Origin: an uncultured Bacilli bacterium
GTDB taxonomy: Bacteria; Bacillota_I; Bacilli_A; RFN20; CAG-826
Assembly: GCA_905235515.1 (NCBI GenBank)
Contig: CAJOLV010000017.1
Location: 1-33,679, forward strand
Length of the DNA stretch: 33,679 nucleotides
Reading direction: 5' to 3'
Under the pieces are notes generated by a model, which made no database searches, was not told the DNA's origin, and saw only the letters and a program-made list of their open reading frames with translations. This document shows, piece after piece, positions 3,473-33,651 of the stretch (positions within the stretch are counted from its first letter, which is position 1; each line of letters starts with the position of its first letter). Made by a program: the position numbers and the translations under genes.

Positions 3473-3488
3473 TAGAAAAGCCTCCTTT

Positions 3489-5888: not shown

Positions 5889-5892
5889 ATTT

Positions 5893-8448: not shown

Positions 8449-8449
8449 C

Positions 8450-10981: not shown

Positions 10982-10990
10982 TTCCCTCCC

Positions 10991-13549: not shown

Positions 13550-13557
13550 AATAATTT

Positions 13558-15464: not shown

Positions 15465-15465
15465 A

Positions 15466-16992: not shown

Positions 16993-17033
16993 AAAAAGTA
17001 ACTCCAGTATCAAAAAACTTTATATTCATTAAA

Positions 17034-17062
17034 AATATAACAAAACAAACTCGCTCAGTAAA
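17034..17062 (-). promoter_or_regulatory. Promoter of the transporter/GH43 operon
   Basis: Minus strand: -35 TTTACT (17062-17057), 17-base spacer, -10 TATATT (17039-17034), with an upstream TG giving an extended -10 (TGTTATATT). It places the transcript start about 35 bases before the solute-binding protein ATG. No clear cre site or operator was seen nearby. Confidence 0.55.
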
Positions 17063-17222
17063 TAATTTTGAAAAAATTTTTCTTTTTTCTGACAAAAAAT
17101 GTGAAAAAATGAAAAAGGTGTTGAAAAATAGTTTTTTTGTATTATATTTCTTTATTTAAGGAAACACACATAATATTTATTATTTAATAGGTATTTAATG
17201 GTTTTTTAACTGCAATGAATAA

Positions 17223-17251
17223 TTGAATAAAATGAATTATTTCACTATATT
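17223..17251 (+). promoter_or_regulatory. Promoter of the ATPase operon
   Basis: TTGAAT (17223-17228), 17-base spacer, TATATT (17246-17251). It gives a leader of about 70 bases before the ATPase start. The 334-base gap between the divergent genes (16993-17326) is very A/T-rich with long A and T runs, and holds this promoter and the opposing one. I see no gene or RNA element in it. Confidence 0.55.
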
Positions 17252-17326
17252 TTTGAAAATTTTTTTTATTTTATTTCCATTTTCATCCTCTTCTTAATAA
17301 AATAAAGTAAATAGAAGGTTTTTGCT

Positions 17327-18664
17327 ATGGCTACAGTCAAATTTGTTAATGTTAACAAGATTTACGATAACTTTGTCCAAGCTGTATTTGATTTTAACTT
17401 AGATGTCAAAGACAAGGAATTTGTCGTGCTTGTTGGCCCATCTGGATGTGGTAAGTCCACCACTTTAAGAATGCTCGCCGGTTTAGAAGATATTACCTCT
17501 GGCGAAATTATTATTGATGATGTTGTTGTTAATGATGTACATCCTAAGAATAGGGATATTGCGATGGTGTTCCAAAACTATGCACTATATCCACATATGA
17601 CTGTCTATGACAATATGGCATTTGCTCTTAAGATGAGACATTTGCCAAAAGAAGAAATTGATAAGAGAGTCCATGAAGCCGCTGAAGTATTAGCATTAGA
17701 AGAATATTTAAAGAGAAAACCAAAAGCATTATCAGGTGGTCAAAGACAACGTGTTGCGTTAGGTAGAGCAATTGTAAGAACTCCAAAGGTCTTCTTAATG
17801 GATGAACCACTTTCAAACTTAGACGCAAAATTACGTGTTCAAATGAGAAGTGAAATCATTAAGATTCATAAAAGAGTTAACGCGACAACAATATATGTTA
17901 CCCATGACCAAACCGAAGCTATGACAATGGCGGATCGTATTGTCATTATGAAAGGTGGCTACATCCAACAAATTGGCACACCAAAAGAAGTTTATAATTT
18001 CCCAAACAACATGTTTGTTGGTGGATTTATCGGTTCACCTGCTATGAACTTTATCAATTGTCACTATGACAATGGAAAAGTAAATGTAAAGGGCGATGAG
18101 CCTATTGAATTACATTTAGAAAAAGAACAATTGCAACTCCTCAAAGATTATTCAACAAAGAAAGTTGAAGAATTAAAAGAAGTGATAGCGAAAACCGAAG
18201 ATAAAATTAATGAACTAAAAGAAGAACTACAAGTTTCTGACCTAAAAGAACTCGAAGTTAATCCTGAAACAAAGAAGAATGCTTTGGAGGAAAAAGGTCG
18301 TAAGCTATCTAAAGAAGAAAAGAATAAAATTGAACATTTATTTAAAATAAATAGTATTAAGGAAAATTACGCACGCGAAGTAGAAGAATTCCAAAAAAGC
18401 ATCTTTGATTTTGAACTAGGCGTGAGACCTGAAGATATCATTATTTCTAAAGAAAAAGGTAATAACGATATTGAAGTTGAAGTTGATTTATCTGAATTAT
18501 TAGGCCACGAATTAATCGTTTATTCCTATATCTGTGGACAAAGAATTATTATCAAAGTCCCATCTGGTGAGGAATATGAATCAGGCACAAAGTTCTATCT
18601 CAATTTCAAACACGAAAAAGTCCATTTCTTTGATTTAGATACAACAAATAGGATTGTTCTATAA
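17327..18664 (+). CDS. Sugar ABC transporter ATPase, MsmK/MalK/UgpC type, with charged insertion
   Basis: A 445-aa ATPase of CUT1 importers. Walker [10 protein letters not shown] (37-45), Q-loop Gln83, signature LSGGQ (136-140), Walker B VFLMDEP (155-161) and the H-loop His194 are all intact, so it should hydrolyse ATP. The C-terminal TOBE regulatory region is interrupted: between NFIN (242) and GVRPED (365) lies a Lys/Glu-rich, probably coiled-coil stretch (about 265-360). It makes the protein some 70-80 residues longer than usual (about 370). RBS AGAAGG is 8 bases upstream. Such ATPases may serve several importers; here the nearest partner is the divergent permease set. The insertion could be a regulatory docking site (inference). 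Confidence 0.92.
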
Positions 18665-19002: not shown

Positions 19003-21306
19003 ATGAAAGCTAGCAAATTGTTATCTGTAATGTTCCTATCACTTACACTACTTATTGGGTGTAATAAAGATAATGGAGGCAATAATGGTCAAGATGATAA
19101 TATTGATATGGATACATTAACCACTCCTTCTAAAAAGACATATACCTTTGAAGAAATTGATCCAAGAGAGCATTTAAATCCAATCACAATTAAAAATGAA
19201 GAAGAATTGATCAGTTTTCAAGCAAAAGTCAATGAAAACGATGAAACATATAAAACTGCTTATGTCGAATTAGCGAACGATATTACTTTAACTAAACCTT
19301 GGACACCAATCTCAAATTTCGCTGGTCAATTCAATGGCAATGGCCATAAAATCACTGGTTTGAAAGCAAGTGAAAAGATTAGTAAATTTGGTTTATTTTC
19401 TTCAATTAACTCCGCAAAAATCGGTTGTTTTGTCTTAAATGGAGAAGTTGAAGTTTTAGATAATTCATCTTTAGTAATCGGATACACTGTTGGAGATTGT
19501 ACGGTTGTCGATGTAAAAGTTGGTGGCAAGTTATCAGGTAACAGTTATTTAGGTGGCATTGTCGGTACTGTTAACGATGGCGTGCTTAAAATAGTTGGTT
19601 GTATTAACGCTGCAAGAATTGAAGGAAAAGCTTCTATTGGTGGCGTTTTAGGTGCTAATAAAACATTTAAAACAAATGTCTCTGATTGCGCAAATTATGG
19701 CGTTGTATCAGGTAAAGGTTCCACTATCGGTGGTATTGTTGCTAGTTTAACCCACTCAACCAGTAAAGTTAATGACTACAATTTATATCAATGTTATAAC
19801 TATGGTACAGTTAAAGGCAGTACCTACGTTGGCGGCGTCATTGGTTTAAGTTGTTGCCAATTAATTAGTTGTGGTGTCGACGCAAAAGCTAAAACTTATC
19901 ACATTACTTCTGATAATAAAGAACAAGAGGTTATTACTTTAACAAGCTTTGATTCACCATTCTGTTCATCCTTATGTGGTGGTTTACTTTATAACACCGC
20001 AATTAATGAATATGGTGAATTGATTGGATGCGTCAATAAAGATGGTTTTGCTGTGACAGGCTTAAATGATCCTGCAGGTTGTACACGTATTATTAAGTTT
20101 AAAGATAAGATTTTATTATTCTCTGCTACAAATAGAATTGCTACTTCTACTGATGGTGGTCATACCTTTGGTCAATCAATTCAAGTTAGTAGCAAGACTA
20201 CAGAAATATGCCCAATCGATGGAGAAGCTTCCACAGATACCGGCAATACGCAACCATATATTCTTCCTGATGGTAGAATTGCGATGATGTATCGTGCTCA
20301 TAGGAGATCTAGTAATTTCTATTATGGTTCTTTAAGAATGAGAATATCTGATGAAGACGGCAATTTTGATAGCAGTGATGAGCCTATTACCTTATGTGAA
20401 AATTTTACAAGTATTACTGGCACTCCAGGTGCGTTCTATGAACCATACCCAATTCTATTGGAAGATGGCTCAATTGCTATTTATATTTCTGAAGATGTCC
20501 ACTACTCTGAAGAATACAATAAAAATGGTATTTATATTGCTAAATTAAAAGATGACATTATCTGCCCTGGTGGCAGTCAAAATACAGTCATGATTCCTTT
20601 GAAAGTTGCACCTGGAGCAACTGAAGTCGGTGAAGGAAAGATTGAAATCGGAGAGCTTAAACTTATCTTCAGAGGTTCCGATACTTCAATGTTTGGCCAT
20701 GAAAATTCACGTCCAGGTATGACTGTCCTTACCCCTCTTTATGATGGTGGCTGGGCTATGACTTTAGAAGATTCTACTGAACAAAGAGTTCCTGGTTATA
20801 ACATGGTTGTTCAAATTACATATTCCATGGATGGTTTAACTTGGACTCCTCCAAGAACAATTATTAGACCACATCACGATGGCGGTACAAGAAATGGCGA
20901 CGGCAGCTTGTATAAATGCTGCGCACCATTCTGTGCTACTCTTCCTGATGGCCGTTTATTAATCTCTTGTGCGACTGATGAAATGTATGAAGGATATTAT
21001 CCAAGCGATAGTTCTCACTACGACCAAGAAATTGCCTTTATTACGAAAAATAGAATTAAATATAACGATGATATTGAAAGAGACAAAGATTTAATCCAAA
21101 TCGGTAACTATGCCTATAGTCCAAATGAATATAGTGTTTGGGCCTCTTGTGCAGTGATTGATGGCACTATTTATGTCTCTGGATTACAAGGTGTTAATTT
21201 TATTAAAGATGATGGCACAATCGGTACACCTCAAGATTGGATGCTCGTTGAATCTATTTATTATCAAGACTTATATCAAAGACTTGGTATTTCTGAAATC
21301 AAATAA
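19003..21306 (+). CDS. Lipoprotein with GLUG repeats and sialidase-fold domain
   Basis: A 767-aa protein with signal peptide and lipobox LIGC (Cys20). Residues about 85-330 hold GLUG-type beta-helix repeats (FNGNGHKITGL, YLGGIVGTV, TIGGIVASL, YVGGVIGLS). Residues about 345-767 resemble a six-bladed sialidase/BNR propeller: one clear Asp-box, STDGGHTF (about 379), a degenerate one, SMDGLTW (about 612), and repeated LPDGRIA/LPDGRLL turns. The sialidase superfamily includes GH33 and the exo-arabinanase family GH93. I cannot assign either, and an Arg triad was not established. GGAG lies about 10 bases before ATG. It is likely exposed outside the cell and acts on, or binds, the same glycan as the divergent GH43 set. 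Confidence 0.72.
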   Translation: MKASKLLSVMFLSLTLLIGCNKDNGGNNGQDDNIDMDTLTTPSKKTYTFEEIDPREHLNPITIKNEEELISFQAKVNENDETYKTAYVELANDITLTKPWTPISNFAGQFNGNGHKITGLKASEKISKFGLFSSINSAKIGCFVLNGEVEVLDNSSLVIGYTVGDCTVVDVKVGGKLSGNSYLGGIVGTVNDGVLKIVGCINAARIEGKASIGGVLGANKTFKTNVSDCANYGVVSGKGSTIGGIVASLTHSTSKVNDYNLYQCYNYGTVKGSTYVGGVIGLSCCQLISCGVDAKAKTYHITSDNKEQEVITLTSFDSPFCSSLCGGLLYNTAINEYGELIGCVNKDGFAVTGLNDPAGCTRIIKFKDKILLFSATNRIATSTDGGHTFGQSIQVSSKTTEICPIDGEASTDTGNTQPYILPDGRIAMMYRAHRRSSNFYYGSLRMRISDEDGNFDSSDEPITLCENFTSITGTPGAFYEPYPILLEDGSIAIYISEDVHYSEEYNKNGIYIAKLKDDIICPGGSQNTVMIPLKVAPGATEVGEGKIEIGELKLIFRGSDTSMFGHENSRPGMTVLTPLYDGGWAMTLEDSTEQRVPGYNMVVQITYSMDGLTWTPPRTIIRPHHDGGTRNGDGSLYKCCAPFCATLPDGRLLISCATDEMYEGYYPSDSSHYDQEIAFITKNRIKYNDDIERDKDLIQIGNYAYSPNEYSVWASCAVIDGTIYVSGLQGVNFIKDDGTIGTPQDWMLVESIYYQDLYQRLGISEIK

Positions 21307-21328: not shown

Positions 21329-22243
21329 ATGTGGTGGAAAAAAGTACTTTATTTTCTTTTGGTCATTGTTCTAGGCATTGGCGTCACTATGATTGGTGGT
21401 TCCATATGTTTTAATGTCAAATCGAAACATTTGCTAAGAGATTGTGTAAGCAGTGAAAAATATTACACAGTTGAACGTTTCTTTAACTATACAATGCCAA
21501 CGGAAAACGATTATTTTTATAAAAGAAATCAAGAAGATGGTTCAAGAATTGAAGTCTATCCTTGTTTAGTTAAACAACCATATTACAAATACACGCCAAA
21601 AGATGGTATCTATGTGAAATATGATATTGTTGAGGAAGCGGTTGCTTTTTCTCTATTTAATTTACCAGGTAATTTTTCTTTAGAAGGGCAAGAGGGAAAA
21701 ATCAAATTATCTTTAGATAATAGCAACACTATTGATTTATTTTTTGATAATACACCATACACCACCGAAGATATTAATTACTACATCAACTTCTATTCTT
21801 ATATAGAACATTACTATTCTTTGACTGTATATATTACTTACGATGATTACATTAATCATGGAGGTAATACAGACTCATCCATTAATTCAATTGAAATATT
21901 TGATGGTAAGGGCACAAGTTTTTATCAAATCAACTTTGATATAAAGCCTAACTTTTTAACCAATATGCATAACGATTATTATGAAGTCTGCCAAGACTAT
22001 CGTAATTATATTTTGGAATATGGTGAAGCCATTAGCGTCACTACTTATGAACGTAAAGAAGCTAAGCTAAAAGCTATTGATCAAGTCACTGAAAACAATC
22101 CTACTAAATATTTTCCAAAGCCATCCACTAATGTTGTTTTAGCATCAGATGCATTCATCTTAACTATCTCTATTACTCTAGCGGCATATATCTCAATTGC
22201 CATAGTTGTAACTAGATTAATCTTCTTTAGAAAAAAGCAGTAA
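21329..22243 (+). CDS. Two-TM protein of unknown function with extracellular domain
   Basis: A 304-aa protein, not recognised. One hydrophobic segment at about residues 5-27 and another at about 268-295, followed by the basic tail FFRKKQ. The roughly 240 residues between are Tyr/Asn-rich and would lie outside the membrane. No RBS is visible before ATG. A TATAAT at 21315-21320 sits nine bases before it, so a near-leaderless transcript is possible. It is the last gene of the ATPase operon and could support assembly of the surface proteins or the transporter; this is only a guess from position. Confidence 0.72.
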   Translation: MWWKKVLYFLLVIVLGIGVTMIGGSICFNVKSKHLLRDCVSSEKYYTVERFFNYTMPTENDYFYKRNQEDGSRIEVYPCLVKQPYYKYTPKDGIYVKYDIVEEAVAFSLFNLPGNFSLEGQEGKIKLSLDNSNTIDLFFDNTPYTTEDINYYINFYSYIEHYYSLTVYITYDDYINHGGNTDSSINSIEIFDGKGTSFYQINFDIKPNFLTNMHNDYYEVCQDYRNYILEYGEAISVTTYERKEAKLKAIDQVTENNPTKYFPKPSTNVVLASDAFILTISITLAAYISIAIVVTRLIFFRKKQ

Positions 22244-22306: not shown

Positions 22307-23158
22307 TTAGGAATTCTTTTTCTTTGTAGAAACTCTCTTAATCAAGATGGTATTTTCAATGTTTTCAATGATATCAGGAACCTTATCATCATTAGTGACA
22401 ATGTATGAATATAATGTATCAAATAAGGCCAATTGAGCATATCTTGATGATAAACCTAAGATACGATAATTAATCTCATCTGAGCTTGTGCATAAGACAA
22501 TATCAGATAACTTAGCGGCAGGTGATTTCTTGTCACTTGTGATTAAGATAACCTTAGCGTTATTCCTCTTAGCTACCTCAATTGATTCAATGATATCTCT
22601 TGTGCAGCCAGAGTGAGACACAGCGATAATGACACTATTTTCGTTAGTCTGGCAGGCAGAAATGATTTGAAAATGGGAATCAAAGCAGATGTGAACGTTT
22701 AAACCAATACGGGATAATTTATGATACGCATCTAAGCATACAGCATATGAATTACCAACACCCATCAAATAAATGCGATCAGCGTTAACAATATATTCAT
22801 AAGCTAGATAAAACGCATCATCCGTTAAGATGTCTTTGGTTTTCATTAAAGAAGCATAAACATCATCACAAACTTTGTTGTACATGGCTAAAAAATCATC
22901 ATCCTTACTGATAGATTTATTAGCAATATGTCTTTCTTCTTTAGCAAGTTGAATTTTAAATTGTTGATATCCTGAGCAACCCACCCTTTTGGTAAAACGG
23001 ACAATCGTCGCTTCACTAGCGTTTGTCAAATTTGAAAGTTCAGTAATTGAAACAGGGGAGAGATTATTAGCATTTTCAATTAAATAATCGGCAATCCTTT
23101 TTTCAGTTTTGCTCATCTTTGGATAGCAAGATTTAATGCTTATTAAAAGTTTTCCCAT
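22307..23158 (-). CDS. RpiR/MurR-family transcriptional regulator
   Basis: A 283-aa sugar-phosphate-sensing regulator. The N-terminal helix-turn-helix domain (about 1-77; TELSNLTNASEATIVRFTKRVG) binds DNA. A C-terminal SIS domain (about 105-250; MGVGNSYAV, VSHSGCTRDI, ITSDKKSP) normally binds a phosphorylated sugar. It is transcribed away from the seven-gene catabolic operon, the usual arrangement for a local regulator, with a 185-base shared promoter region. No good RBS precedes the ATG; MSKTEKR, 14 codons in, has none either. Its effector is probably a sugar phosphate made by one of the two kinases of the operon (inference). Confidence 0.93.
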   Translation of the reverse strand: MGKLLISIKSCYPKMSKTEKRIADYLIENANNLSPVSITELSNLTNASEATIVRFTKRVGCSGYQQFKIQLAKEERHIANKSISKDDDFLAMYNKVCDDVYASLMKTKDILTDDAFYLAYEYIVNADRIYLMGVGNSYAVCLDAYHKLSRIGLNVHICFDSHFQIISACQTNENSVIIAVSHSGCTRDIIESIEVAKRNNAKVILITSDKKSPAAKLSDIVLCTSSDEINYRILGLSSRYAQLALFDTLYSYIVTNDDKVPDIIENIENTILIKRVSTKKKNS

Positions 23159-23227: not shown

Positions 23228-23281
23228 AATGAAAAGAAGTTTTATTTTTTGTCATTTTTATGAAATTTTTTTATGGTATTA

Positions 23282-23310
23282 TTGAAAATTATTTTAAAAG
23301 TCAATAAAAT
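23282..23310 (+). promoter_or_regulatory. Promoter of the catabolic/ETF operon
   Basis: TTGAAA (23282-23287), 17-base spacer, TAAAAT (23305-23310). The leader would be about 27 bases, with GAGGT at 23331-23335. An inverted repeat ATTGA (23281-23285) / TCAAT (23301-23305) overlaps the -35 box and spacer and could bind the regulator. A further TATAAT at 23325-23330 lies too near the RBS to be preferred. Confidence 0.5.
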
Positions 23311-23343: not shown

Positions 23344-24762
23344 ATGAATGAATTTTTATTCACACAAATTCTTTCAGAATTAGAAGATGCAGTTGGTAAA
23401 GAGAACTGTTCAACCAAATTGGTTGACAAGATTGCTCATAGCGTTGACTATTTCTGGCTTTCAAGAATGTGGGCGGATAGAGGAAAAGAAATGCCAATGG
23501 GCGACTTTATTGTTTCTCCGAAGAACGCTCAAGAAGTTAGTAAAGTTTTAAAAATTGCTAATTATTACAAGATTCCAGTTACCACTTGGGGTGGAGGTGG
23601 AGGCACACAAGGTGGCGCAATTCCAGTTTGTGGTGGCATCCTCTTAGACACTAAGAGAATGAATGAAATCTATGAAATAAATGAAGAAGGAATGTATATC
23701 GAATGTGGCGCAGGTGCTATTTACAAGCACATTGAATGGGCGGCTAACGAAAGAGGCTACTCCACTATGCACTTCCCATCATCATTAACTTGTTCCACTG
23801 TTGGTGGTTTCTTAGCGCACAGAGGAATCGGTGTTGTTTCTACAAAATACGGCAAGATTGATGATATGGTTCTTCAAATGGAAGTTGTTTTACCAAATGG
23901 CGATATTATCTATACTTCAAGCGCACCTAAACACGCTGCTGGTCCAGATTTAAATCAAATCTTTATTGGTTCAGAAGGAACACTTGGTATTATCACTAAA
24001 GCTCAAATAAGAATTTATGTTCAACCTGAAGTAAGAAGTTTCAGAGGGTTCTTGTTCAAAGATATGCACTCTGCATTCCAAGCGAGTAGAGAACTTTTAC
24101 AAATTTTCAAACCATCAGTTATGCGTTTATACGATGATGCAGAAACAGCATCCCTTATTAAGAAGATTGTCGGTGTGGCTAAACCTGGTGCCTTTATGAA
24201 TATTGCTTGCGAAGGCAAAAAGGAATTAGTCGATGTCGAAGAAAAGATATTATTAGATACATTTGCTAAATATGGAGCGGAAGATTTAGGCTCCGAATAT
24301 GGCGAAAAATGGTGGGATGAAAAGATCACCTTCTTCTACCCTGGCCATATGATGGATTTACCACAAATGTTTGGCACAATGGATAGCATTGCCCCATATG
24401 ACAAAATCGAAGAAATTTATTGGGCAATGAAGAAAGCTATCGAAACTAAATTCCCAAATATTAAATTTATTGCTCACTTCTCTCACTGGTATGAATGGGG
24501 CGCAATGATTTATGACAGATTCATTTGTGATAATCCACCAGAAGATCCTATCGAAGCTATGAAACTTCATAATGAGGTTTGGAACACTGGCGTTAGAACT
24601 GCTATTGCTCATGGTGGTGTCGTCAATGATCACCATGGTGTAGGTATCAAATTAGGTCGTTTAATGAAAGAACAATATGGACCAGCCATGCAAGTATTTG
24701 AGGCACTAAAAAAATCCTTAGATCCAAATGGCATCATGAATCCATTTAAACTTGGTCTTTAA
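23344..24762 (+). CDS. FAD-linked dehydrogenase, GlcD/AGPS (PCMH) family
   Basis: A 472-aa flavoprotein. The FAD_binding_4 domain covers about 50-225, with nucleotide loop TTWGGGGGTQGG (80-91), STVGGFLAHRG (151-161) and IGSEGTLGI (208-216). A FAD-oxidase C-terminal domain follows, with HFSHWYEWG (about 378-386) and NDHHGVG (428-434). That last motif recalls alkyl-dihydroxyacetonephosphate synthase, and the LDPNGIMNP tail is typical of GlcD-like 2-hydroxyacid dehydrogenases. No signal or membrane segment. It is the first gene of the RpiR-controlled operon (RBS GAGGT, 8-base spacing) and directly precedes an Fe-S protein, as in GlcD-GlcF systems. Probable role: oxidation of a hydroxy group of a sugar acid or sugar derivative. 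The substrate is unknown. Confidence 0.9.
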   Translation: MNEFLFTQILSELEDAVGKENCSTKLVDKIAHSVDYFWLSRMWADRGKEMPMGDFIVSPKNAQEVSKVLKIANYYKIPVTTWGGGGGTQGGAIPVCGGILLDTKRMNEIYEINEEGMYIECGAGAIYKHIEWAANERGYSTMHFPSSLTCSTVGGFLAHRGIGVVSTKYGKIDDMVLQMEVVLPNGDIIYTSSAPKHAAGPDLNQIFIGSEGTLGIITKAQIRIYVQPEVRSFRGFLFKDMHSAFQASRELLQIFKPSVMRLYDDAETASLIKKIVGVAKPGAFMNIACEGKKELVDVEEKILLDTFAKYGAEDLGSEYGEKWWDEKITFFYPGHMMDLPQMFGTMDSIAPYDKIEEIYWAMKKAIETKFPNIKFIAHFSHWYEWGAMIYDRFICDNPPEDPIEAMKLHNEVWNTGVRTAIAHGGVVNDHHGVGIKLGRLMKEQYGPAMQVFEALKKSLDPNGIMNPFKLGL

Positions 24763-24779
24763 TTTGGAGGTAACTAGTC

Positions 24780-25853
24780 ATGAAAATTTCAGATAAAGCT
24801 AGACAACAAGCTGAATCATGTAGATTCTGTTGGATGTGCCGCCATGTGTGTCCAATCGGTAATGCTGATGGCCAAGAAAGAAATAATGCGAGAGCTAGAG
24901 CATTAATGGTTCAATATGTTCTAAGAGGAACAGAAAAATTAGAAGACATTGCTGACAATATGTATGAGTGTACTCTTTGTGGAGCGTGTACCAACAATTG
25001 TAAAACTGGATGGGATCCAAAGATCTTTATTCAAGAAGTTAAAACACAAATTGTCTTAGAAGGTAAAACACCTGAATATATTGTTAAATTATTAGAAAAA
25101 TACCAGCAAAACGGCACTATTTTTGATGAAAATGTTGAAAAACTATATCAAAAACATAGTGAAGGAAAAGTTCTTTTACTCGCTGGCCAAAACGCCATTT
25201 ATAAAGATAGTGATGCTGTTGAAAAAGCATTAGATTTATTAGCAAAAGGTAACGTTAAAGCACGTCTAGATAAAGAGGCAGATGATACTGGTTTTGCATT
25301 ATGGTTCTTAACAGGAAAAACTAATGAAACAGTCGAACAAGCTAAGAAGTCTGTTGCTGAGTTAAATAAATATGAAAAGGTTATTGTCTATAATCCTGTA
25401 GATTTGTCATTAATCCTTCATGAATGGAAAGAATGGGGAATTGAAGTAAAAGCTCAATTACTCAGTTTCAATGAAGAGTTATTAGAACTTATTAATAACG
25501 GACAATTAAAAGTGAAAAAATCTAAAAAAGAATATTCCCTACAAGATAACTATGCTTACGCTCGTGAACTCGATGATGAAAAATCAGGAAGAGAACTTAT
25601 TGCGAAAGTTGGCGTTGTCAAAGATATGCTTTTAATTGGTAAAGAAGCTAACTTAGCAGGCCATCTCATTATGAACGAATATATGCCAGAAAAGATGGCG
25701 CTCGTCGCTCAAGGAAGATGGGTTAATGCCAAGAATATGGGTTGCAAAGTTTTAGTCACTGAAAATCCTGACGAACATGTTTTGCTAGCAAAAACTGCTC
25801 CAGAGGGTTATAAAGTAATTACAGTTGAAGAAATGATTCTTGAAAATCTCTAG
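24780..25853 (+). CDS. 2x[4Fe-4S] electron-transfer protein, GlcF-like N-terminus
   Basis: A 357-aa protein. Two CxxCxxC-x3-C ferredoxin motifs (Cys14/17/20/24 and Cys64/67/70/74) would hold two [4Fe-4S] clusters, as in GlcF, HdrD and LutA-type proteins. The remaining 260 residues have almost no Cys and lack the CCG domains those proteins usually carry; they show alpha/beta character instead (VLLLAGQNAIY, KVIVYNPVDLS). GGAGG lies 10 bases before ATG, 17 bases after the FAD dehydrogenase stop. It is well placed to pass electrons from that flavoprotein to the fused ETF encoded further down the operon (inference). Confidence 0.88.
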   Translation: MKISDKARQQAESCRFCWMCRHVCPIGNADGQERNNARARALMVQYVLRGTEKLEDIADNMYECTLCGACTNNCKTGWDPKIFIQEVKTQIVLEGKTPEYIVKLLEKYQQNGTIFDENVEKLYQKHSEGKVLLLAGQNAIYKDSDAVEKALDLLAKGNVKARLDKEADDTGFALWFLTGKTNETVEQAKKSVAELNKYEKVIVYNPVDLSLILHEWKEWGIEVKAQLLSFNEELLELINNGQLKVKKSKKEYSLQDNYAYARELDDEKSGRELIAKVGVVKDMLLIGKEANLAGHLIMNEYMPEKMALVAQGRWVNAKNMGCKVLVTENPDEHVLLAKTAPEGYKVITVEEMILENL

Positions 25854-25863
25854 AGGTATAATC

Positions 25864-26655
25864 ATGAACTTAAAGAAATCTTATAAAGAACAATACGGCT
25901 ATGAACGTTTTATTACCGATCGTAATTCTCCTTTAGCTTTTGCTGAAATGGATATGCTCAAATTAGCAGAAGGTAAAGAATTTACCATTGAAGAAGAAAA
26001 CAAAGAATTTGTTCTTATCATCTTAGATGGTAAATGTGATGTTTGGGGTAAAGACTTCAAATTTGAAAAAGTTGGTTATCGTAAATCTTCTTTAGAAGTA
26101 GTTGGCGCTGAGTCAGTTTACGTTGGTAAAAACACCGTATTTACCGTGAAAGCCGTTGATGGTGATGTAAGAGTGGCTGTTTGTAAAGCACCAGCACCAA
26201 AATATTATCCACCACAATGCATCAGACATGATGAAGTTAAAATGGCGAGATTTGGCAAAGAAACATTTGTGAGAGATGTCGCCTTTACATTCCCAGAAAC
26301 AATGCAAGCTAACTATTTATACATTGGCGAATACTGGGTTGAAAACGGCTTCTGGGCCAGTTTCCCTCCACATAAACACGATGTTGAAAATGGAGTCGAA
26401 GGTGCCTTAGATGAGATTTACTATTATGAATTTGATAAGCCACAGGGATTTGGTATTCAAATGGTTTACACTTCTGATAAAACCATTGATGAAGCATATA
26501 GAATTCAACATGGTGATGCTGTAGAAATTCCTCGTGGTTATCATCCAATGGCAGTCGCCCCAGGATATAAGAACTATACATTATGGGTTATGGCAGGTCC
26601 ACGCAGAGGCTTATTAAGCACTAGTGAAGAATGCCATAAATGGATTGTTAAATAA
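25864..26655 (+). CDS. IolB/KduI-like cupin isomerase
   Basis: A 263-aa protein of the IolB (5-deoxy-glucuronate isomerase) family. ATG at 25864 is chosen because AGAGGT precedes it; the longer frame from 25840 overlaps the Fe-S gene. The C-terminal cupin keeps the family signatures PPHKH (His170, His172), an acidic residue near DEIYYYEF (Glu184), PQGFG and RGYHPMAVAPGY (His227), a likely metal site. In inositol breakdown IolB converts 5-deoxyglucuronate to its 2-keto form, but no other clear iol gene is present here. A related aldose/ketose or uronate isomerisation on a different substrate is therefore likely. Confidence 0.88.
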   Translation: MNLKKSYKEQYGYERFITDRNSPLAFAEMDMLKLAEGKEFTIEEENKEFVLIILDGKCDVWGKDFKFEKVGYRKSSLEVVGAESVYVGKNTVFTVKAVDGDVRVAVCKAPAPKYYPPQCIRHDEVKMARFGKETFVRDVAFTFPETMQANYLYIGEYWVENGFWASFPPHKHDVENGVEGALDEIYYYEFDKPQGFGIQMVYTSDKTIDEAYRIQHGDAVEIPRGYHPMAVAPGYKNYTLWVMAGPRRGLLSTSEECHKWIVK

Positions 26656-26666
26656 TTTAAGTTATT

Positions 26667-26690
26667 AGGGGTTATGAACCCCTTCTTTTT
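26667..26690 (+). terminator. Terminator-like hairpin inside the catabolic operon
   Basis: AGGGGTT (26667-26673) pairs with AACCCCT (26677-26683) over loop ATG, followed by TTCTTTTT. It stands between the isomerase and kinase genes, so it could cut expression of the last four genes or protect the 3' end of a processed upper mRNA. Its loop contains the ATG that a longest-frame reading would take as the kinase start. Confidence 0.6.
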
Positions 26691-26700
26691 AGGAACAAAT

Positions 26701-28164
26701 ATGTATTATTTAGGAATTGATTTTGGTGGTGGTTCCAGCAAAGCCACCCTTATTGATGAATTGGGTAATGTGATAGCCACTGCTAGCAGTGAATACCCCA
26801 CTACTTATGTAGAAAATGGTTTAGCAACGCAAAAACCTATCGATTGGTTTAATGCTGCCATTAAAAATATAAAATCAATTCTATCAACAGGTATTGATCC
26901 AAAACTAATTGAATGTATCTGTTTTGACGCTGCGACTCATACCGCTGTTCTTTTAGATGAGAATGAAGACGTCATTTGTGATTCTATTTATTGGACAGAT
27001 ACAAGAAGTGTTAAAGAAAAAGAATTCTTATTAGAGAATTATAAAGATTATTTGTTTGATAAAACAAAACACTTGCCTGACACTATTTGGACTCTCCCAG
27101 AATTAATGTATTTATACAATAATTATCAAGATGCTTACCGCCGCATTAAACACATAGTGTTCGCTAAGGATTATGTTAGACATTTATTCTGTGCTGGTTT
27201 AGTAACCGATTATATTGAAGCAGAAGGCAGTATGCTTTTTGATTTTGATAATAATTGTTGGGACGAAAAACTATTGTCATTAGCCCATTTAGATATTTCA
27301 CAAATGCCTAAGATAGTTTCACCACTTGATGTATTAGGAACAATTAATGAATGGGCCAGTAAAGTAAGTGGCTTATCCACTACCACAAAAGTTTTATGTG
27401 GATGTACAGATACCGCGATGGAAGTATTTGCTTCTGGTGGCGTGAAGAAAGGCGATATGACCTTAAAATTAGCTACAGCAGGAAGAATTTGTCTCATAAC
27501 AGATAAACCATATCCTGATAAGAACATTATTAATTATTCGCACTTAAATAAGGGCTTATTCTATCCAGGAAGCGGCACTAAATCATGCGCATCATCTTTA
27601 AGGTGGTTTAGAGATACCTTAGGTGGAACATATAAGGAATTAGATCAATTAGCAGAACAAATTCCTCTAGGTAGTGATGGATTAATCTTCCTTCCATATT
27701 TAATGGGTGAATTAACTCCTTACGCTAACCCAAATATTAGAGGTGGATATTTTGGTTTATCTGCGACTCATACAAAAGGACATTTAGTGAGAGCCTTATT
27801 AGAAGGCGTGGCTTTCTCTTTATTAGATTGTTATCTCTATTTAAAAGATCACGGATTAGAAGTTTCTAATCGCGCTTTTGCATTAGGTGGTGGAAGTAAA
27901 TCACCTCTATGGAGGCAAATAGTCAGTGATGTTTTAGGCATAGAATTATATGTCACTGAGAATAACGATTCCTCTTTTGGAGGCGCTTTATGCGCTGCAA
28001 CGGCGTGTGGTAAATTCACTTCTTTAGAGGATGCAATTAAGAGAACACAAAAGATTGTTGGGAGAGTAAAACCAGATTTAGAGAATCATGAGAAATATAT
28101 GAAAATTTTCAAAAAATACCAGCAAATCGCCAGTTTTTTAGTGGAATTTTACAAAAATGAGTAA
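26701..28164 (+). CDS. FGGY-family carbohydrate kinase (xylulokinase-like)
   Basis: A 487-aa sugar kinase. The start is set at 26701, where MYYLGIDFGGGSSKATL matches the family N-terminus and AGGA lies 6-7 bases upstream; an ATG 27 bases earlier lies in a hairpin loop. N-terminal FGGY ATPase-fold half, catalytic Asp probably in CGCTDTAME (about 240), C-terminal half with LGGGSKSPLWRQIVSDVLG, close to FGGY signature 2. Members phosphorylate ketoses and polyols such as xylulose, ribulose, fuculose and glycerol. With the fucose isomerase-like enzyme it forms a typical isomerase-kinase pair. The gene ends in an 8-base overlap with the ETF gene. Confidence 0.92.
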   Translation: MYYLGIDFGGGSSKATLIDELGNVIATASSEYPTTYVENGLATQKPIDWFNAAIKNIKSILSTGIDPKLIECICFDAATHTAVLLDENEDVICDSIYWTDTRSVKEKEFLLENYKDYLFDKTKHLPDTIWTLPELMYLYNNYQDAYRRIKHIVFAKDYVRHLFCAGLVTDYIEAEGSMLFDFDNNCWDEKLLSLAHLDISQMPKIVSPLDVLGTINEWASKVSGLSTTTKVLCGCTDTAMEVFASGGVKKGDMTLKLATAGRICLITDKPYPDKNIINYSHLNKGLFYPGSGTKSCASSLRWFRDTLGGTYKELDQLAEQIPLGSDGLIFLPYLMGELTPYANPNIRGGYFGLSATHTKGHLVRALLEGVAFSLLDCYLYLKDHGLEVSNRAFALGGGSKSPLWRQIVSDVLGIELYVTENNDSSFGGALCAATACGKFTSLEDAIKRTQKIVGRVKPDLENHEKYMKIFKKYQQIASFLVEFYKNE

Positions 28165-29515
28165 AAATATTTTGGTCTTGTTAAAGATATATAAAGGTGA
28201 CTTAAATCCATTTGATGAATGTGCTTTGGAATGTGCTTTATCATATCCAGAAAGTAAGGTCACAGTTTTAGCGATGTCTCCACTATCGCACTTAGAAACT
28301 TTAGAAAATTTAACAAGATTAGGATGCGATGCGATTTTAGTAAGTGACAAGCTTTACGCTGGTAGCGATACAATTGCTACTACAAAAGTTTTAGCAAAAA
28401 CGGTTGAACTATATAATCCAGATTTGATCTTTTGTGGAAGACAAAGCATCGATGGTAACACTGCACAAGTACCGATTATGCTCTCTGAATTAACTGGTTA
28501 TAAATTAGTTAATAAAGTGATTTCAATTGAAAGGGAAAATGCTAAAACAAGAGAAGATAAATCCTATGTTTTAGGTAATAAACAATTATTGACTTTTGAA
28601 AAATTTAAACTTTTAAGAGCCCCTTCCATCTTCTCCAAAAAAAGAGAAGTTAGAATTATCACAAATGAAGAATTAGATTTGCCAGTTGAATCGGTGGGAT
28701 TATTTGGTTCTCCTACACAAGTTATTAAATCTTACGCTAATGAAACTGATAGACGTTTTTGTAAATTTATCAATTTTAGCAAATTAGATGAAATAGTTTA
28801 CACATCATTGATTGTAATGCCAGATGAGAAAGTAGAGAAAGTGAACAAAGCTCCTCTTATTCATTACGTAGGTAATCTCAATGATGTCGCTTTAAAATAT
28901 GGTGAGCAAGTCCAAGAGATTAAAGTAGATGGACTATCCATAGATGAAGTAATCAAATTAATTGAAAAAATCAAACCAAAAATAATTCTTTGGGAAGAAA
29001 GAGAATATAAACAATTAGCCGCTCGTGTAGCGATTAGAATGAATGTTGGGTTATGCGCAGATTGTGTATCATTTAACTATGTTAAAAATCAATTTATTAT
29101 CACTAGACCTGCTCTCGGTGGAGATGTAATTGCTGATATTGTTTCTAAATCACCAATATCAATGGCGACAATTAAAGCTACTAATACAGAAGAATATGGT
29201 ATCGCCATTGTGATTGGAAGAGGAACATTACATTGCTTGAAGCACATGGATAAAATAGCCGATGATTTTAGAGCGAAGATTTATTGCACTCGTCCATTAG
29301 CGGATTCTGGCGTCATTGATTATTCACATCAAGTTGGTTTAACAGGTATATCAATAGCCCCAAGAGTATGTATTGTGATAGGTACTAGTGGCGCGGTACA
29401 AAATATTGTTGGTATCAATAAATCTAAAACAATTATTGCGATTAATAATGATAAAAAGGCGAAAATATTTGATTATTCCGATTATGGAATAATTATGGAT
29501 GCAAAGGATATATAA
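28157..29515 (+). CDS. Single-chain electron transfer flavoprotein (EtfB-EtfA fusion, compact)
   Basis: A 452-aa protein. Residues 1-210 match EtfB, with the adenine-nucleotide motif GRQSIDGNTAQ (94-104). Residues about 230-345 match only the later part of EtfA domain I (LAARVAIRMNVGLCADC, TRPALGGDVIADIV). Residues 346-452 match the EtfA FAD domain: RPLADSG (379-385), HQVGLTG (391-397), GTSGAVQNIVG (409-419). Separate EtfB and EtfA total about 580 residues or more, so the first part of EtfA domain I and the last C-terminal helix seem to be missing. No stop or frame break divides the halves. ATGAGTAA overlap couples it to the kinase gene. Probable partner: the FAD dehydrogenase and Fe-S protein of the same operon. 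Confidence 0.87.
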   Translation: MSKNILVLLKIYKGDLNPFDECALECALSYPESKVTVLAMSPLSHLETLENLTRLGCDAILVSDKLYAGSDTIATTKVLAKTVELYNPDLIFCGRQSIDGNTAQVPIMLSELTGYKLVNKVISIERENAKTREDKSYVLGNKQLLTFEKFKLLRAPSIFSKKREVRIITNEELDLPVESVGLFGSPTQVIKSYANETDRRFCKFINFSKLDEIVYTSLIVMPDEKVEKVNKAPLIHYVGNLNDVALKYGEQVQEIKVDGLSIDEVIKLIEKIKPKIILWEEREYKQLAARVAIRMNVGLCADCVSFNYVKNQFIITRPALGGDVIADIVSKSPISMATIKATNTEEYGIAIVIGRGTLHCLKHMDKIADDFRAKIYCTRPLADSGVIDYSHQVGLTGISIAPRVCIVIGTSGAVQNIVGINKSKTIIAINNDKKAKIFDYSDYGIIMDAKDI

Positions 29516-29524
29516 TAAAAAAGT

Positions 29525-30427
29525 ATGAAAAAAGTAATCGGTGTAGGCGCTTGCGTATTAGATACATATATTGAAATGGATTCTTATCCAAAAGAAGATA
29601 TTAAAATCAGAGCAAATAGAGTTTTTTCTTGCGGCGGTGGTCCAGTTGGTAATGCTTTAGTGGGTATTGCAAAACTTGGTGTACAAGCCGCATATTTAGG
29701 CTCATTAAGCAATGATGCTTATGGTCATCAATTAGTGGATGAATTCAAACAATTTGGTGTATGCACCAATAACATTAAACTATTGGATAATATCGATGCT
29801 TTTAAAGCATTTATAATATTAGGTGAAAATAAAGGTACAAGAACAGTCCTATTTGATAAAGGAACTATTCCTGATGATCCTTCATTATTAAATTTAGAAG
29901 CGATTCAAGATTTTGATGTTTTACATCTTGATGGCAACTTTATGAATTTAGCGATTGAATCCGCAAAAATTGCTAAGAAATATCATAAGATTGTTTCTCT
30001 AGATGCTGGTTCTCCATATCCAAGAGTGGAAGAATTATTACCTTATGTTGATATTTTAATTCCAAGCGAGAGCTTTGCTCTTAAGTTCACTGGTAAAGAT
30101 ACCGTCGATGACGCAATTATGGATTTATATTTAAAATACAAACCTAAGGTTTTAGTGGTTACACAAGGACCAAGGGGTGGAACATATATCGAAGACGAGA
30201 AAGTTCACCACTACGAGGCATTCAAGATTAATTGCATTGATTCTAATGGAGCAGGGGATATATTCCATGGAGCGTTCTTAGTAGCGTACTTGGAGGGCAA
30301 ATCATTACTAGATTCTATTTACTTTGCCAGTGCGACAAGCGCATTAAAATGTATGAAAGTAGGCGTTAGAAACGCCTTACCAAATAAAAATGAAGTTGAA
30401 GCTTTCTTAAAAGCGAGGGGTAAATAA
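29525..30427 (+). CDS. PfkB-family sugar kinase
   Basis: A 300-aa ribokinase-superfamily enzyme. Substrate-side motif GGGPVGNALVGIAKLG (37-52) and the ATP/anion-hole motif DSNGAGDIFHGAF (239-251), with catalytic base Asp245, are intact. The length is normal. Members act on ribose, fructose phosphates, KDG or 5-dehydro-2-deoxygluconate (IolC); the last would fit the IolB-like isomerase, but the sequence alone does not decide. It follows the ETF gene by nine bases without a strong RBS. As the second kinase of the operon it may phosphorylate a later intermediate before aldol cleavage. No aldolase is present in the window. Confidence 0.9.
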   Translation: MKKVIGVGACVLDTYIEMDSYPKEDIKIRANRVFSCGGGPVGNALVGIAKLGVQAAYLGSLSNDAYGHQLVDEFKQFGVCTNNIKLLDNIDAFKAFIILGENKGTRTVLFDKGTIPDDPSLLNLEAIQDFDVLHLDGNFMNLAIESAKIAKKYHKIVSLDAGSPYPRVEELLPYVDILIPSESFALKFTGKDTVDDAIMDLYLKYKPKVLVVTQGPRGGTYIEDEKVHHYEAFKINCIDSNGAGDIFHGAFLVAYLEGKSLLDSIYFASATSALKCMKVGVRNALPNKNEVEAFLKARGK

Positions 30428-30428
30428 T

Positions 30429-31826
30429 ATGTTAGATTACAAACTTAAAATCGGCCTTTGTCCAATCAGAAGATGGATTAAAGAACCACCAAAGAGAATT
30501 GGTATCTTCCAAAGTGATTACGCAGTTGATAACAAAAACGAAATCATTAAGTATTTAAAAGAACATTACTCTGATGAGATGACAGAATTTGTTGATCTCG
30601 AATTCTTAAATGAAGAAGGCCTTCTTTGTTTAGAAGAAGATTGTCCACGAGTTGTGGAGTATTTCAAAGAACAAAAGATTAATGCATTATTCATCATTAA
30701 CTGTAACTTTGGTATGGAAAACTGTGCTGGTTTAGTAGCCAGAGAATTACATCTACCAACATTACTTTGGGGTCCAAGAGATCGTAATTTTAAAGATGAT
30801 ATTAGATACACCGACACTCAATGCGGTTTGTTTGCAATGAGCAAGCAATTAAAGAGAAATAATGTTAAATTCTCTTATATTGAAAACTGTGATATTGAAT
30901 CACCTATTTTTGATAAAAGCTTAAAAGATTTCTTCTCTGTCGCTTGTATGGTGAAAAACTTTAAGAATATGAGAATCTTACAAGTTGGCACCCGCATCAA
31001 ACCATTTAAGAGCATTATGTATAACGAATTAGAACTTTGTGAAAAATTCGGTATTGATATTCGTATCTTTAACTTAGGCGAAGCTCTCATTGATTTAAAT
31101 AAGATTTGGGATGAGAAACAAGATGTCCTTGATAAAGATTTAGTCGAATTAAAGAAAACCTTTGATTGTGGCAATTTAGATGATACATATCTTAAAAAGA
31201 TGTTAGCAATTGTCTATTATTACGAGAATTTAGCTAAGGCTAATGATTGCAATATTATTTCTAGTGAGTGCTGGACTGGTATCAATCTCGCTTGGGGAGC
31301 GAATCCATGTTTAGCGATGTGCTTATTAGCGGATAGAGATATCTATGTCACATGTGAATGGGATATTCATATGACAATCACTAATGTTTTGTTATTATCG
31401 GCCTCTAGAGGCAAAGAAAAACCTATCCAAGGTGAATTTACTTGCCGTAATCCAGATAACGATAACAGCGAGCTTTTATGGCATTGTGGTCCATTCCCAC
31501 TTAAATATAAAGATCCAAGTTGTAAACCATTCTTATATAACACCAAACCATCATTTAAGTTAAAAGATGGTAACTACACTATCGCGAGATTCCAAGTTGA
31601 TAGAGGTCAATACTATTTATTAGCGGGTAATTTTAATACCTGTGAGGGGCCAAAAACATTTGGAACATATATGTGGGCAAAATTTAATGACTTACCAAAA
31701 GTTGAACGCAAACTTATTGAAGGACCATATATCCATCATATGAGCGAGGTTCCTGGTAATTACGTTGGAGTGTTAAAAGAATTCGCGAAATACGAAGACT
31801 TGATATTCGATCCAATCGAAGAATAA
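30429..31826 (+). CDS. L-fucose/L-arabinose isomerase-superfamily protein
   Basis: A 465-aa protein resembling the COG2407 group of fucose isomerase-like enzymes. It opens KIGLCPIRRW, and the middle holds an alpha/beta domain with GMENCAGLVARELHLPTLLWGPRD. Candidate metal ligands are Glu280 (SECWTG), Glu310 or Asp312 (CEWDIH) and His436/437 (IHHMSEVPG). It is shorter than classical FucI (about 590 aa), as usual for this group. Predicted role: aldose-ketose isomerisation, possibly supplying the FGGY kinase. Substrates range widely in this group (fucose, arabinose, sulfoquinovose-type sugars), so none is assigned. The start is one base after the PfkB stop (GAGGGG upstream). It is the last gene before the terminator. 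Confidence 0.85.
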   Translation: MLDYKLKIGLCPIRRWIKEPPKRIGIFQSDYAVDNKNEIIKYLKEHYSDEMTEFVDLEFLNEEGLLCLEEDCPRVVEYFKEQKINALFIINCNFGMENCAGLVARELHLPTLLWGPRDRNFKDDIRYTDTQCGLFAMSKQLKRNNVKFSYIENCDIESPIFDKSLKDFFSVACMVKNFKNMRILQVGTRIKPFKSIMYNELELCEKFGIDIRIFNLGEALIDLNKIWDEKQDVLDKDLVELKKTFDCGNLDDTYLKKMLAIVYYYENLAKANDCNIISSECWTGINLAWGANPCLAMCLLADRDIYVTCEWDIHMTITNVLLLSASRGKEKPIQGEFTCRNPDNDNSELLWHCGPFPLKYKDPSCKPFLYNTKPSFKLKDGNYTIARFQVDRGQYYLLAGNFNTCEGPKTFGTYMWAKFNDLPKVERKLIEGPYIHHMSEVPGNYVGVLKEFAKYEDLIFDPIEE

Positions 31827-32292: not shown

Positions 32293-33651
32293 CTAGCTAA
32301 CTGTAATCACACAATAATCTTGGTAACTACCATCTTCAGTAGTGACTGTAATGACTGCTTCACCAGTAGCAATAGCAGTGACAACACCATTAGAGTCAAC
32401 AGTAGCGACTTGTTCGTTACTAGATTGATAGCTCACATTGGCGTTAGTTGCGTTATTTGGCAATACTGACGCTGATAATTGAGTAGTGTCACCAACACTT
32501 AATTGAGCGTTTTCTGGTTCTAAGCTGACGCCTGTTACTGGGATGTTAGATGGTTGGACACTAACGGTGCAACTTGCGGTATAACTACCATCAGTGGTTA
32601 TAACTGTAATAATGGCTCTACCACTACTAACCGCGGTTACTACCCCATTACTAATTGTGGCAACATTTTCATTATTACTAGTCCATGTGACTTCCTGATT
32701 AGAAGCGTTACTTGGTAAGATATTTGCCACTAATGTCGCAGTCTCTCCTTCTATTAATGATAATGTGGTTTGATCTAGAGAGACACTTTCGACAGGAACA
32801 TCAACACCAGATTCTGGTACGATTAATTGTTCATAAGAAGTGACTTCCCCATTAATGGATATTGTGCAGTTGACATTAGTGTTTTCACCAACATAGACAG
32901 AGAATTCATTAATTGGTTTGCCTTCATATAAATATAATGATTCATTATTATCACCAGTCACTTCGATAGTGACAAAGTCAATATCATCACCTTCATATGT
33001 AGCGGTAAAGATTAAATAATCATCAACAACTTCACTACTAGAGACATTACTTGAATGTGTATCATTGGCTTTAGTCTTATAACTACTATTAAAGATTTTC
33101 TTCATTGGGGAAACACTAGTGTCATAAGCTGTTAAGTCATAGACTGTATTTGGTGATAAATCATTAAAGATGGCTGGACTAACAACAGTGATATCTTGAT
33201 TAGCTTCATAACTATCATTAGTTAATGAAAGCAAAAAAGTCTTATCATTATCACCATTAATTTCAAATCCTAATTCAGTACTTCTTGTTAAGAAGTTATT
33301 AATATGATTTGAGGATTGAGTACCAATTAATCCAGTAGCCACTCCGATTGTGGCGATAGCGCCAACAAAAGTAACCAATATTCCTGGTAAGGCAGTCACC
33401 ATTCCTGATGCTCCTCCAGAAGTGATTTTATTAACATCTTCGTTATTTTTCTCAGTAGAAGATTTCTTATTATCCGTGGAAGATAAATCGCTAATTTCAC
33501 TAGAATTGGTATTTAGTTCGTTACTTAAAAAACTTTCTTGACCATCATTAAAAACTTCTTTTCCACCTTGGGACAAATTAATCTCTTCAGTTTTTATAAG
33601 ACCGTCTTGATTCTCAATATCAAAATTGTTCTTTTCTAAATCTTTCATCAT
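32293..33651 (-). CDS. Single-TM surface protein with tandem Big_2 domains
   Basis: A 452-aa protein. The first 83 residues are hydrophilic, acidic and Ser/Asn-rich. One membrane segment spans about 84-110 (GMVTALPGILVTFVGAIATIG). A fibronectin-III-like stretch follows (about 120-200; LSPNTVYDL), then another beta region. Two bacterial Ig-like group 2 domains close the protein (about 285-368 and 369-452), each with the SVSL, LPSNA/LPNNA and GVVTA marks. There is no N-terminal signal peptide, so the segment at 84-110 would act as an internal anchor with the C-terminus outside. No RBS lies at a normal distance; ATGATG overlaps the TGA of an upstream frame, suggesting coupled translation. Function is unknown, probably surface exposure or adhesion. 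Confidence 0.8.
   Translation of the reverse strand: MMKDLEKNNFDIENQDGLIKTEEINLSQGGKEVFNDGQESFLSNELNTNSSEISDLSSTDNKKSSTEKNNEDVNKITSGGASGMVTALPGILVTFVGAIATIGVATGLIGTQSSNHINNFLTRSTELGFEINGDNDKTFLLSLTNDSYEANQDITVVSPAIFNDLSPNTVYDLTAYDTSVSPMKKIFNSSYKTKANDTHSSNVSSSEVVDDYLIFTATYEGDDIDFVTIEVTGDNNESLYLYEGKPINEFSVYVGENTNVNCTISINGEVTSYEQLIVPESGVDVPVESVSLDQTTLSLIEGETATLVANILPSNASNQEVTWTSNNENVATISNGVVTAVSSGRAIITVITTDGSYTASCTVSVQPSNIPVTGVSLEPENAQLSVGDTTQLSASVLPNNATNANVSYQSSNEQVATVDSNGVVTAIATGEAVITVTTEDGSYQDYCVITVS

Follow-up and report, generated by a model that had tools for sequence, protein, structure and literature searches.

Why would a sugar operon carry its own electron-transferring flavoprotein (ETF)? 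To our knowledge, the pentose pathways are considered thoroughly mapped, with redox steps that depend on nicotinamide adenine dinucleotide or its phosphate, NAD(P). The question is raised by a 33,679-nucleotide stretch of DNA (contig CAJOLV010000017.1, positions 1 to 33,679; here contig C17, its full length being the window) from an uncultured Bacilli bacterium with a genome of 1.2 Mb (92% complete). An operon at 23344–31826 combines a flavin adenine dinucleotide (FAD) dehydrogenase, an iron-sulfur (FeS) protein and a one-chain ETF with two isomerases and two kinases. The reading that we favor from sequence comparison, and to which we give about even confidence, is that the window is a single arabino-oligosaccharide locus, probably RpiR-controlled, of a small-genome fermenting Bacillota, in which the operon dissimilates a pentose in place of AraBAD with an ETF-linked oxidation.

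Gene content and conservation of the operon

The operon comprises seven plus-strand open reading frames (ORFs), which start at 23344, 24780, 25864, 26674, 28157, 29525 and 30429 and are separated by gaps or overlaps of no more than 18 nucleotides. They and the neighboring regulator gene are as follows:

22307–23158, minus strand: RpiR/MurR-family regulator, divergent from the operon (Pfam SIS, 3.5e-23; HTH_6, 2.7e-20)
23344–24762, plus strand: GlcD-fold FAD dehydrogenase of the AGPS/YgcU type, 472 amino acids (Pfam FAD_binding_4 and FAD-oxidase_C)
24780–25853, plus strand: two-[4Fe–4S] protein, GlcF/EtfD-like, with the CCG cysteines lost (Fer4_8, 1.4e-9; Fer4 dicluster)
25864–26655, plus strand: IolB/KduI cupin aldose-ketose isomerase (KduI/IolB; TIGR04378, 222.8 bits, cut-off 205)
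26674–28164, plus strand: FGGY kinase, XylB-like (XylB, 347.9 bits, under the cut-off of 380; best PDB match xylulokinase 5VM1)
28157–29515, plus strand: one-chain ETF, EtfB part followed by EtfA part (PF01012 and PF00766; best PDB matches LctC and A. fermentans EtfB)
29525–30427, plus strand: PfkB kinase, sulfofructose-kinase/ketohexokinase-like (best PDB match sulfofructose kinase 7AG6)
30429–31826, plus strand: isomerase with the L-arabinose isomerase fold, of an SftI-related family (AlphaFold and Foldseek)

The ORFs, their spacing and the Pfam, NCBIfam and PDB families agree, confirming that the one-strand, seven-gene operon and the RpiR gene described in the initial annotation are real. 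The IolB gene probably starts at the ATG at 25864, within an ORF listed from the TTG at 25840.

With the ETF as query against 224 genomes of the family, the same operon was found in five genomes from four genera, including the window's own. The four further genomes with a full-length relative of the ETF (48–60% identity in this search; G012, G021, G114 and G172) have an identical gene order, the G021 contig beginning inside IolB, and the RpiR orthologue occupies the equivalent place in G114 and G172. In all four relatives a class II ketose-phosphate aldolase (family PF01116; 83–88% identical among them) stands between ETF and PfkB; an aldose 1-epimerase (mutarotase) is added in G114 and G012, and a gene of the lactate-permease family adjoins the operon in G172. 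Compared with the window proteins, the flavoprotein is 90–95% identical, the isomerase 84–91%, IolB 74–88% and the ETF 49–62%, and the flavoprotein (GlcD) heads the operon and is better conserved than its other proteins in each of the four genomes in which that end is assembled. Fourfold-degenerate sites are just 24–50% identical, so that synonymous divergence is saturated. Because the proteins are up to 95% identical while these sites are so far diverged, the operon is old and has been maintained by selection, most tightly in the enzymes of carbon chemistry; the same saturation rules out recent horizontal transfer as the cause of the 95% identity. Loss of gene order in relatives had been named beforehand as the result that would count against the operon, and the order instead recurs across this saturated divergence, beyond what chance would give.

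A search of 392 Bacillota genomes for the FeS protein and the flavoprotein, at the strict thresholds of 1e-12 and 1e-100, returned only this family. Those literature searches that could be run, on the ygc genes, on IolB with ETF and on ETF-linked pentose routes, yielded no account of this gene set, in line with the initial annotation, to which no such pathway was known. By appearance, the locus is a variant of pentose breakdown not described before, present in a small number of related bacteria from gut or rumen.

The transporter/GH43 cassette and a shared palindrome

The operon is the predicted catabolic half of a larger locus that fills the window, a setting of arabino-oligosaccharide type that is new here and formed no part of the initial annotation. 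The other half is a cassette at 143–18664, which encodes an MsmK protein, a solute-binding protein (SBP), two permeases, a CBM9 protein, three GH43 proteins and a large lipoprotein (w1):

17327–18664, plus strand: MsmK-type ATP-binding cassette (ABC) ATPase (Pfam)
15466–17013, minus strand: SBP; its sole PDB relative is the arabino-oligosaccharide-binding protein 6RJY (9.4e-20)
14499–15464, minus strand: ABC sugar permease (Pfam search of the cassette proteins)
13558–14502, minus strand: ABC sugar permease (same search)
10991–13549, minus strand: secreted CBM9 protein (family match and N-terminal sequence)
8450–10981, minus strand: GH43-fold lipoprotein, first catalytic Asp apparently lost (family match and sequence inspection)
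5893–8448, minus strand: GH43-fold lipoprotein, first catalytic Asp apparently lost (family match and sequence inspection)
3489–5888, minus strand: GH43a, arabinofuranosidase-like, no signal peptide (triad D36/D151/E200; 4QQS)
143–3499, minus strand: w1, with an M26_N-like stretch; last member of the cassette

The order MsmK-SBP-permease-permease-CBM9-GH43c-GH43b-GH43a-w1 is conserved in G172, G114 and G021 and in part in G012, where the genes for the SBP and permeases lie immediately next to the operon. Cassette and operon share one contig in the window, G172, G114 and G012 and lie on two short contigs in G021. The relatives of the GH43 proteins are of the arabinofuranosidase and arabinanase types, and at least three GH43 matches occur in all five operon genomes compared with 37 of 220 in the family (a table count, uncorrected for relatedness). 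The GH43b and GH43c lipoproteins, which apparently lack the first Asp of the catalytic triad retained in GH43a, may bind sugar rather than cut it.

A palindrome, TGAAAATWATTTTCA, is common to the RpiR-flavoprotein and MsmK-SBP promoter regions across the genomes, and in the window its candidate sites are:

23230–23244, unstranded: candidate operator with 3 mismatches to TGAAAATWATTTTCA; leading member of a pair spaced by 53 bp
23283–23297, unstranded: candidate operator TGAAAATTATTTTAA, overlapping the −35 element of a promoter-like site at 23282–23310
17254–17268, unstranded: candidate operator in the MsmK-SBP promoter region (palindrome scan)

Sites with at most two mismatches number 11 across nine regions, where shuffled sequences give 0.29; the count is optimistic, and to that extent tells against our reading, as the motif was defined on the same regions in which it was tested. 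Better evidence for shared control is given by the spacing of the sites, which are paired 52–53 bp apart in five of the nine regions, and by the whole window, where the only two sites with at most two mismatches lie in the operon and MsmK-SBP promoters. The palindrome is putatively tied to RpiR itself.

The redox trio and its relatives

The best PDB relatives of the flavoprotein are alkyl-dihydroxyacetone phosphate (alkyl-DHAP) synthases, and it is 31% identical to Escherichia coli YgcU. It has the AGPS/YgcU signature in AHFSHWYEWGAMIY (H-x-S-H-x-Y) and DHHGVG (HHG(V/I)G), with Asp in place of the first of the three His of AGPS HHHG. Alkyl-DHAP synthase is a net non-redox flavoenzyme, and the likeness speaks for a flavoprotein whose step, like that of AGPS or an epimerase, is non-oxidative or an internal redox one, with ETF and FeS protein only maintaining its flavin. 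We consider this highly improbable, as the dedicated ETF and FeS protein are kept in every operon copy that covers them.

The ygc cluster of E. coli K-12 (2892657–2903374; ygcU, ygcQR, ygcO, ygcN, ygcE and ygcW; function unknown) likewise brings together an AGPS-type flavoprotein, an ETF and an FGGY kinase. It differs from the operon in its two-chain ETF, the FixC-like ygcN and the ferredoxin ygcO and in having no IolB, PfkB, aldolase or isomerase, and its FGGY kinase is only 21% identical. Through the common flavoprotein-ETF-FGGY theme, the locus gives a handle on this uncharacterized cluster.

The FeS protein has exactly eight conserved Cys (14, 17, 20, 24, 64, 67, 70 and 74) in two CxxCxxCxxxC sets, the remainder being degenerate and CCG-like. 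Its best Foldseek match is EtfD from M. smegmatis (3.4e-7); the model is of low confidence (predicted local distance difference test, pLDDT, 63), and the likeness to EtfD is a lead.

The initial annotation had likened the trio directly to LctBCD, the confurcating lactate dehydrogenase of Acetobacterium woodii. Both have a GlcD-fold flavoprotein, a group-2-like ETF, [4Fe–4S] clusters, DGxTAQ and the Arg of RPxxGG, whereas the operon has a one-chain ETF, a separate two-cluster protein and a sugar-operon setting. In LctD, the metal ligands are His377, His384 and Glu422 and the base is His423 (PMC9232219); in the flavoprotein, H381 and H431 are kept, Met388 stands for His384 and His430 for Glu422. 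With these replacements, a YgcU/AGPS-like flavoprotein and clusters carried on a GlcF/EtfD-like protein, not on an EtfA ferredoxin domain, the direct analogy is weak and finds no support, and membership of the LctBCD system was rejected on the metal ligands and the domain layout. The N-terminal [4Fe–4S] ferredoxin domain of EtfA, absent from the operon ETF, is present in the LctC-like protein of G149, a genome of the same family that has a canonical LctD-LctC-LctB-like set (contig C56, 6976–10361).

The operon ETF is the only ETF found in the window's genome, and its motifs were compared against PMC9232219 and PMC10734219. In group 2 (electron-bifurcating) ETFs, the motif for the bifurcating FAD (b-FAD) in EtfB is DGDTAQVGP (PMC9232219); all five operon copies have DG[NDS]T[AG]Q[VIT]P, without the G before P. 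The Arg of RPxFGG, which contacts N5 of the b-FAD, is kept as RPALGG in all five, and the SPT anchor (GxxSPTxV) is SPT in four and SKT in G172. At the NAD site RxFxG, the Arg is replaced by K, N, N, P and I, with the aromatic residue and Gly kept, and the RxGV loop near the b-FAD is deleted (LLKIYKGDLNPFDE). What stands of the earlier proposal of Lct-type bifurcation is thus the b-FAD, SPT and arginine motifs; missing are the LctD metal site, the Arg of the NAD site and the RxGV loop. From its motifs, the ETF may be bifurcating, have changed its partner or be a simple carrier.

The retained ETF motifs also bear on the possibility that the three proteins form a dehydrogenase of the lactate or glycolate type that happens to be located in a sugar operon, with NAD/ferredoxin confurcation like that of LctBCD. 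The lactate-permease gene beside the operon in G172 and the [FeFe] hydrogenase that four of the five operon genomes possess point the same way. Set against them are the unconserved metal ligands and YgcU/AGPS-like active site of the flavoprotein, the missing NAD arginine and RxGV loop of the ETF and the position of GlcD, which leads the operon and is the best conserved of its proteins, and we judge this account to be quite unlikely. As for the arabinose locus that we favor, its boldest form is a route for L-arabinose in which the AGPS-type flavoenzyme oxidizes a sugar-derived hydroxyl and, by flavin-based confurcation through the one-chain ETF and the EtfD-like FeS protein, is coupled to low-potential carriers, so that ETF bifurcation would be part of the carbon steps themselves; this version is tentative, and possible rather than probable.

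The sugar and the proposed route

The isomerase has no Pfam hit, and its sequence family includes SftI-like proteins; with the NCBIfam model of SftI (sulfoquinovose isomerase, NF048012) it scores 78 bits against a cut-off of 700. From its AlphaFold model (pLDDT 84.7), Foldseek ranks L-arabinose isomerases best (7CHL, template modeling score 0.81), ahead of fucose isomerases, and in a profile alignment E310, H352 and H437 fall on the AraA metal ligands E306, H350 and H450, with E336 one column off AraA E333. As modeled, the isomerase has the AraA fold and metal ligands. The "fucose isomerase-like" label of the initial annotation gives way to an L-arabinose isomerase fold, and identity as a true fucose isomerase was rejected on the same ranking. 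No match to the AraA (PF02610) or XylA family was detected in any of six genomes, namely the five with the operon and the operon-free G033, and the window has no AraD 4-epimerase (AraD and AraB were not searched genome-wide).

The locus thus resembles araBAD in the fold and metal ligands of its isomerase, in its FGGY kinase and in an importer of arabino-oligosaccharide type with GH43 proteins. It departs from araBAD in that the isomerase is not AraA by sequence family, FGGY is nearer XylB and no AraD is present, and in the additional kinase, aldolase, IolB and redox module. L-Arabinose is the likeliest substrate, a choice inferred from the locus because of the likeness of the SBP, the AraA-fold isomerase and the missing AraA and XylA in the six genomes.

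Other parts of the operon recall the handling of acidic sugars. IolB, which matches the IolB-like structure 2QJV, has an intact HxH/E/H site and scores above its family cut-off; PfkB is nearest to sulfofructose kinase, with ketohexokinases among the matches; and the nearest relatives of the aldolase are YdjI, foremost, and tagatose-bisphosphate aldolase. A hexuronate or deoxy-uronate could be processed by IolB, PfkB and class II aldolase, as in IolB-IolC-IolJ or YihV/YdjH-YdjI, to DHAP and an acid aldehyde, with the flavoprotein oxidizing a hydroxy acid; YdjI acts on DHAP and L-arabinuronate (PMC11194214). The cassette, however, indicates neutral arabino-oligosaccharides, and no IolD, IolE, IolG or uronate enzymes occur at the locus (IolD was not searched genome-wide), leaving this alternative unlikely.

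Sulfoglycolysis (SftI, YihV) and the YdjH/YdjI system share with the locus an SftI-related isomerase, a sulfofructose-kinase-like PfkB, a class II aldolase and, in two relatives, a mutarotase, but the isomerase is far under the SftI cut-off and the locus has no sulfoquinovosidase or sulfolactaldehyde enzymes. A sulfoquinovose pathway was rejected on the SftI score and on a separate sulfo-transaldolase-like locus on contig C7 of the same genome. This locus (3270–9561) has a second SftI-family isomerase, a major facilitator superfamily transporter, GH31 and genes of the transaldolase family and for an NAD-binding (HIBADH-type) protein, and looks like a sulfo-transaldolase sulfoquinovose locus.

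D-Apiose, or another branched or rare pentose, is suggested by the isomerase's relatives at 37–43% identity in other families, which stand beside a split transketolase and an FGGY kinase and, in two loci, beside PF13204 apiosidases, matching the AptA/AptB-AplK pathway (PMC13001218). The isomerase would then form apulose, which the kinase would phosphorylate, and the redox module would take the place of the transketolase step. We find this distinctly unlikely: none of the five operon genomes has an apiosidase family match, none of the operons has a transketolase (the AptA/AptB halves), FGGY is of another subfamily (XylB-like, not GlpK-like) and a DHAP-forming aldolase is ill-suited to apulose. 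The apiose pathway itself, with neither apiosidase nor transketolase, was rejected. The loci of these relatives, from other families of the class (L065, L067, L068 and L069, with a GlpK-like FGGY in L065 and the apiosidases in L065 and L067), may hold an uncharacterized type of D-apiose isomerase.

For the arabinose reading, we infer the sugar, every reaction and the electron route as follows. The transporter would import arabino-oligosaccharides, from which the cytoplasmic GH43 would free L-arabinose; the AraA-fold isomerase would yield a ketopentose and PfkB, of the ketose C1-kinase type, its 1-phosphate, which the class II aldolase (in four of the five genomes) would split into DHAP and a C2 aldehyde. 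Judged by stereochemistry, the 1-phosphates of L-ribulose and D-xylulose suit the class II fructose/tagatose aldolase family, and that of D-ribulose the FucA family. In the window's operon, cleavage would have to use a paralogue, or the step differs. The FGGY kinase and IolB could belong to a parallel branch or handle a second sugar or pentose, such as xylose. The AGPS/YgcU-type flavoprotein would oxidize a carbinol, either in an intermediate of the pathway or in the C2 product; electrons would pass from the flavoprotein to the two-[4Fe–4S] protein, the one-chain ETF and a ferredoxin/NAD pool, which could discharge through the [FeFe] hydrogenase. The lactate-permease gene in G172 counts in favor of this reading as well.

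Several points weigh against this arabinose route. The adjoining aldolase that had been sought is present in the four relatives and absent from the window's own operon, and paralogues elsewhere in the genome are only 36–42% identical. The isomerase's nearest named relatives are sulfoquinovose isomerases or belong to apiose-type loci, not to arabinose. The absence of AraA and XylA may be a trait of the family, as it extends to the one operon-free genome tested (G033). A simple arabinose route has no need of IolB and a second kinase, and nothing in the data fixes the substrate of the flavoprotein.

In its observed content, the locus has its own ETF and no recognizable AraA or XylA, and its isomerase, flavoprotein and aldolase are extremely constrained. 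If the proposed chemistry is true, it would constitute a new pentose route and a new substrate class for ETF-linked flavoenzymes, and would offer a natural experiment on the ETF motifs that bifurcation needs.

Three further genes lie around the regulator and operon. The following feature is found beside RpiR in G114 and G172 also:

19003–21306, plus strand: sialidase-like lipoprotein (BNR-type, judged by eye; no Pfam hit)

A probable membrane protein of 304 amino acids (21329–22243; no Pfam hit) is kept beside RpiR in three genomes. A terminator scan 3′ of the operon found none; downstream, on the minus strand at 32293–33651, a gene encodes a protein with two Big_2 domains.

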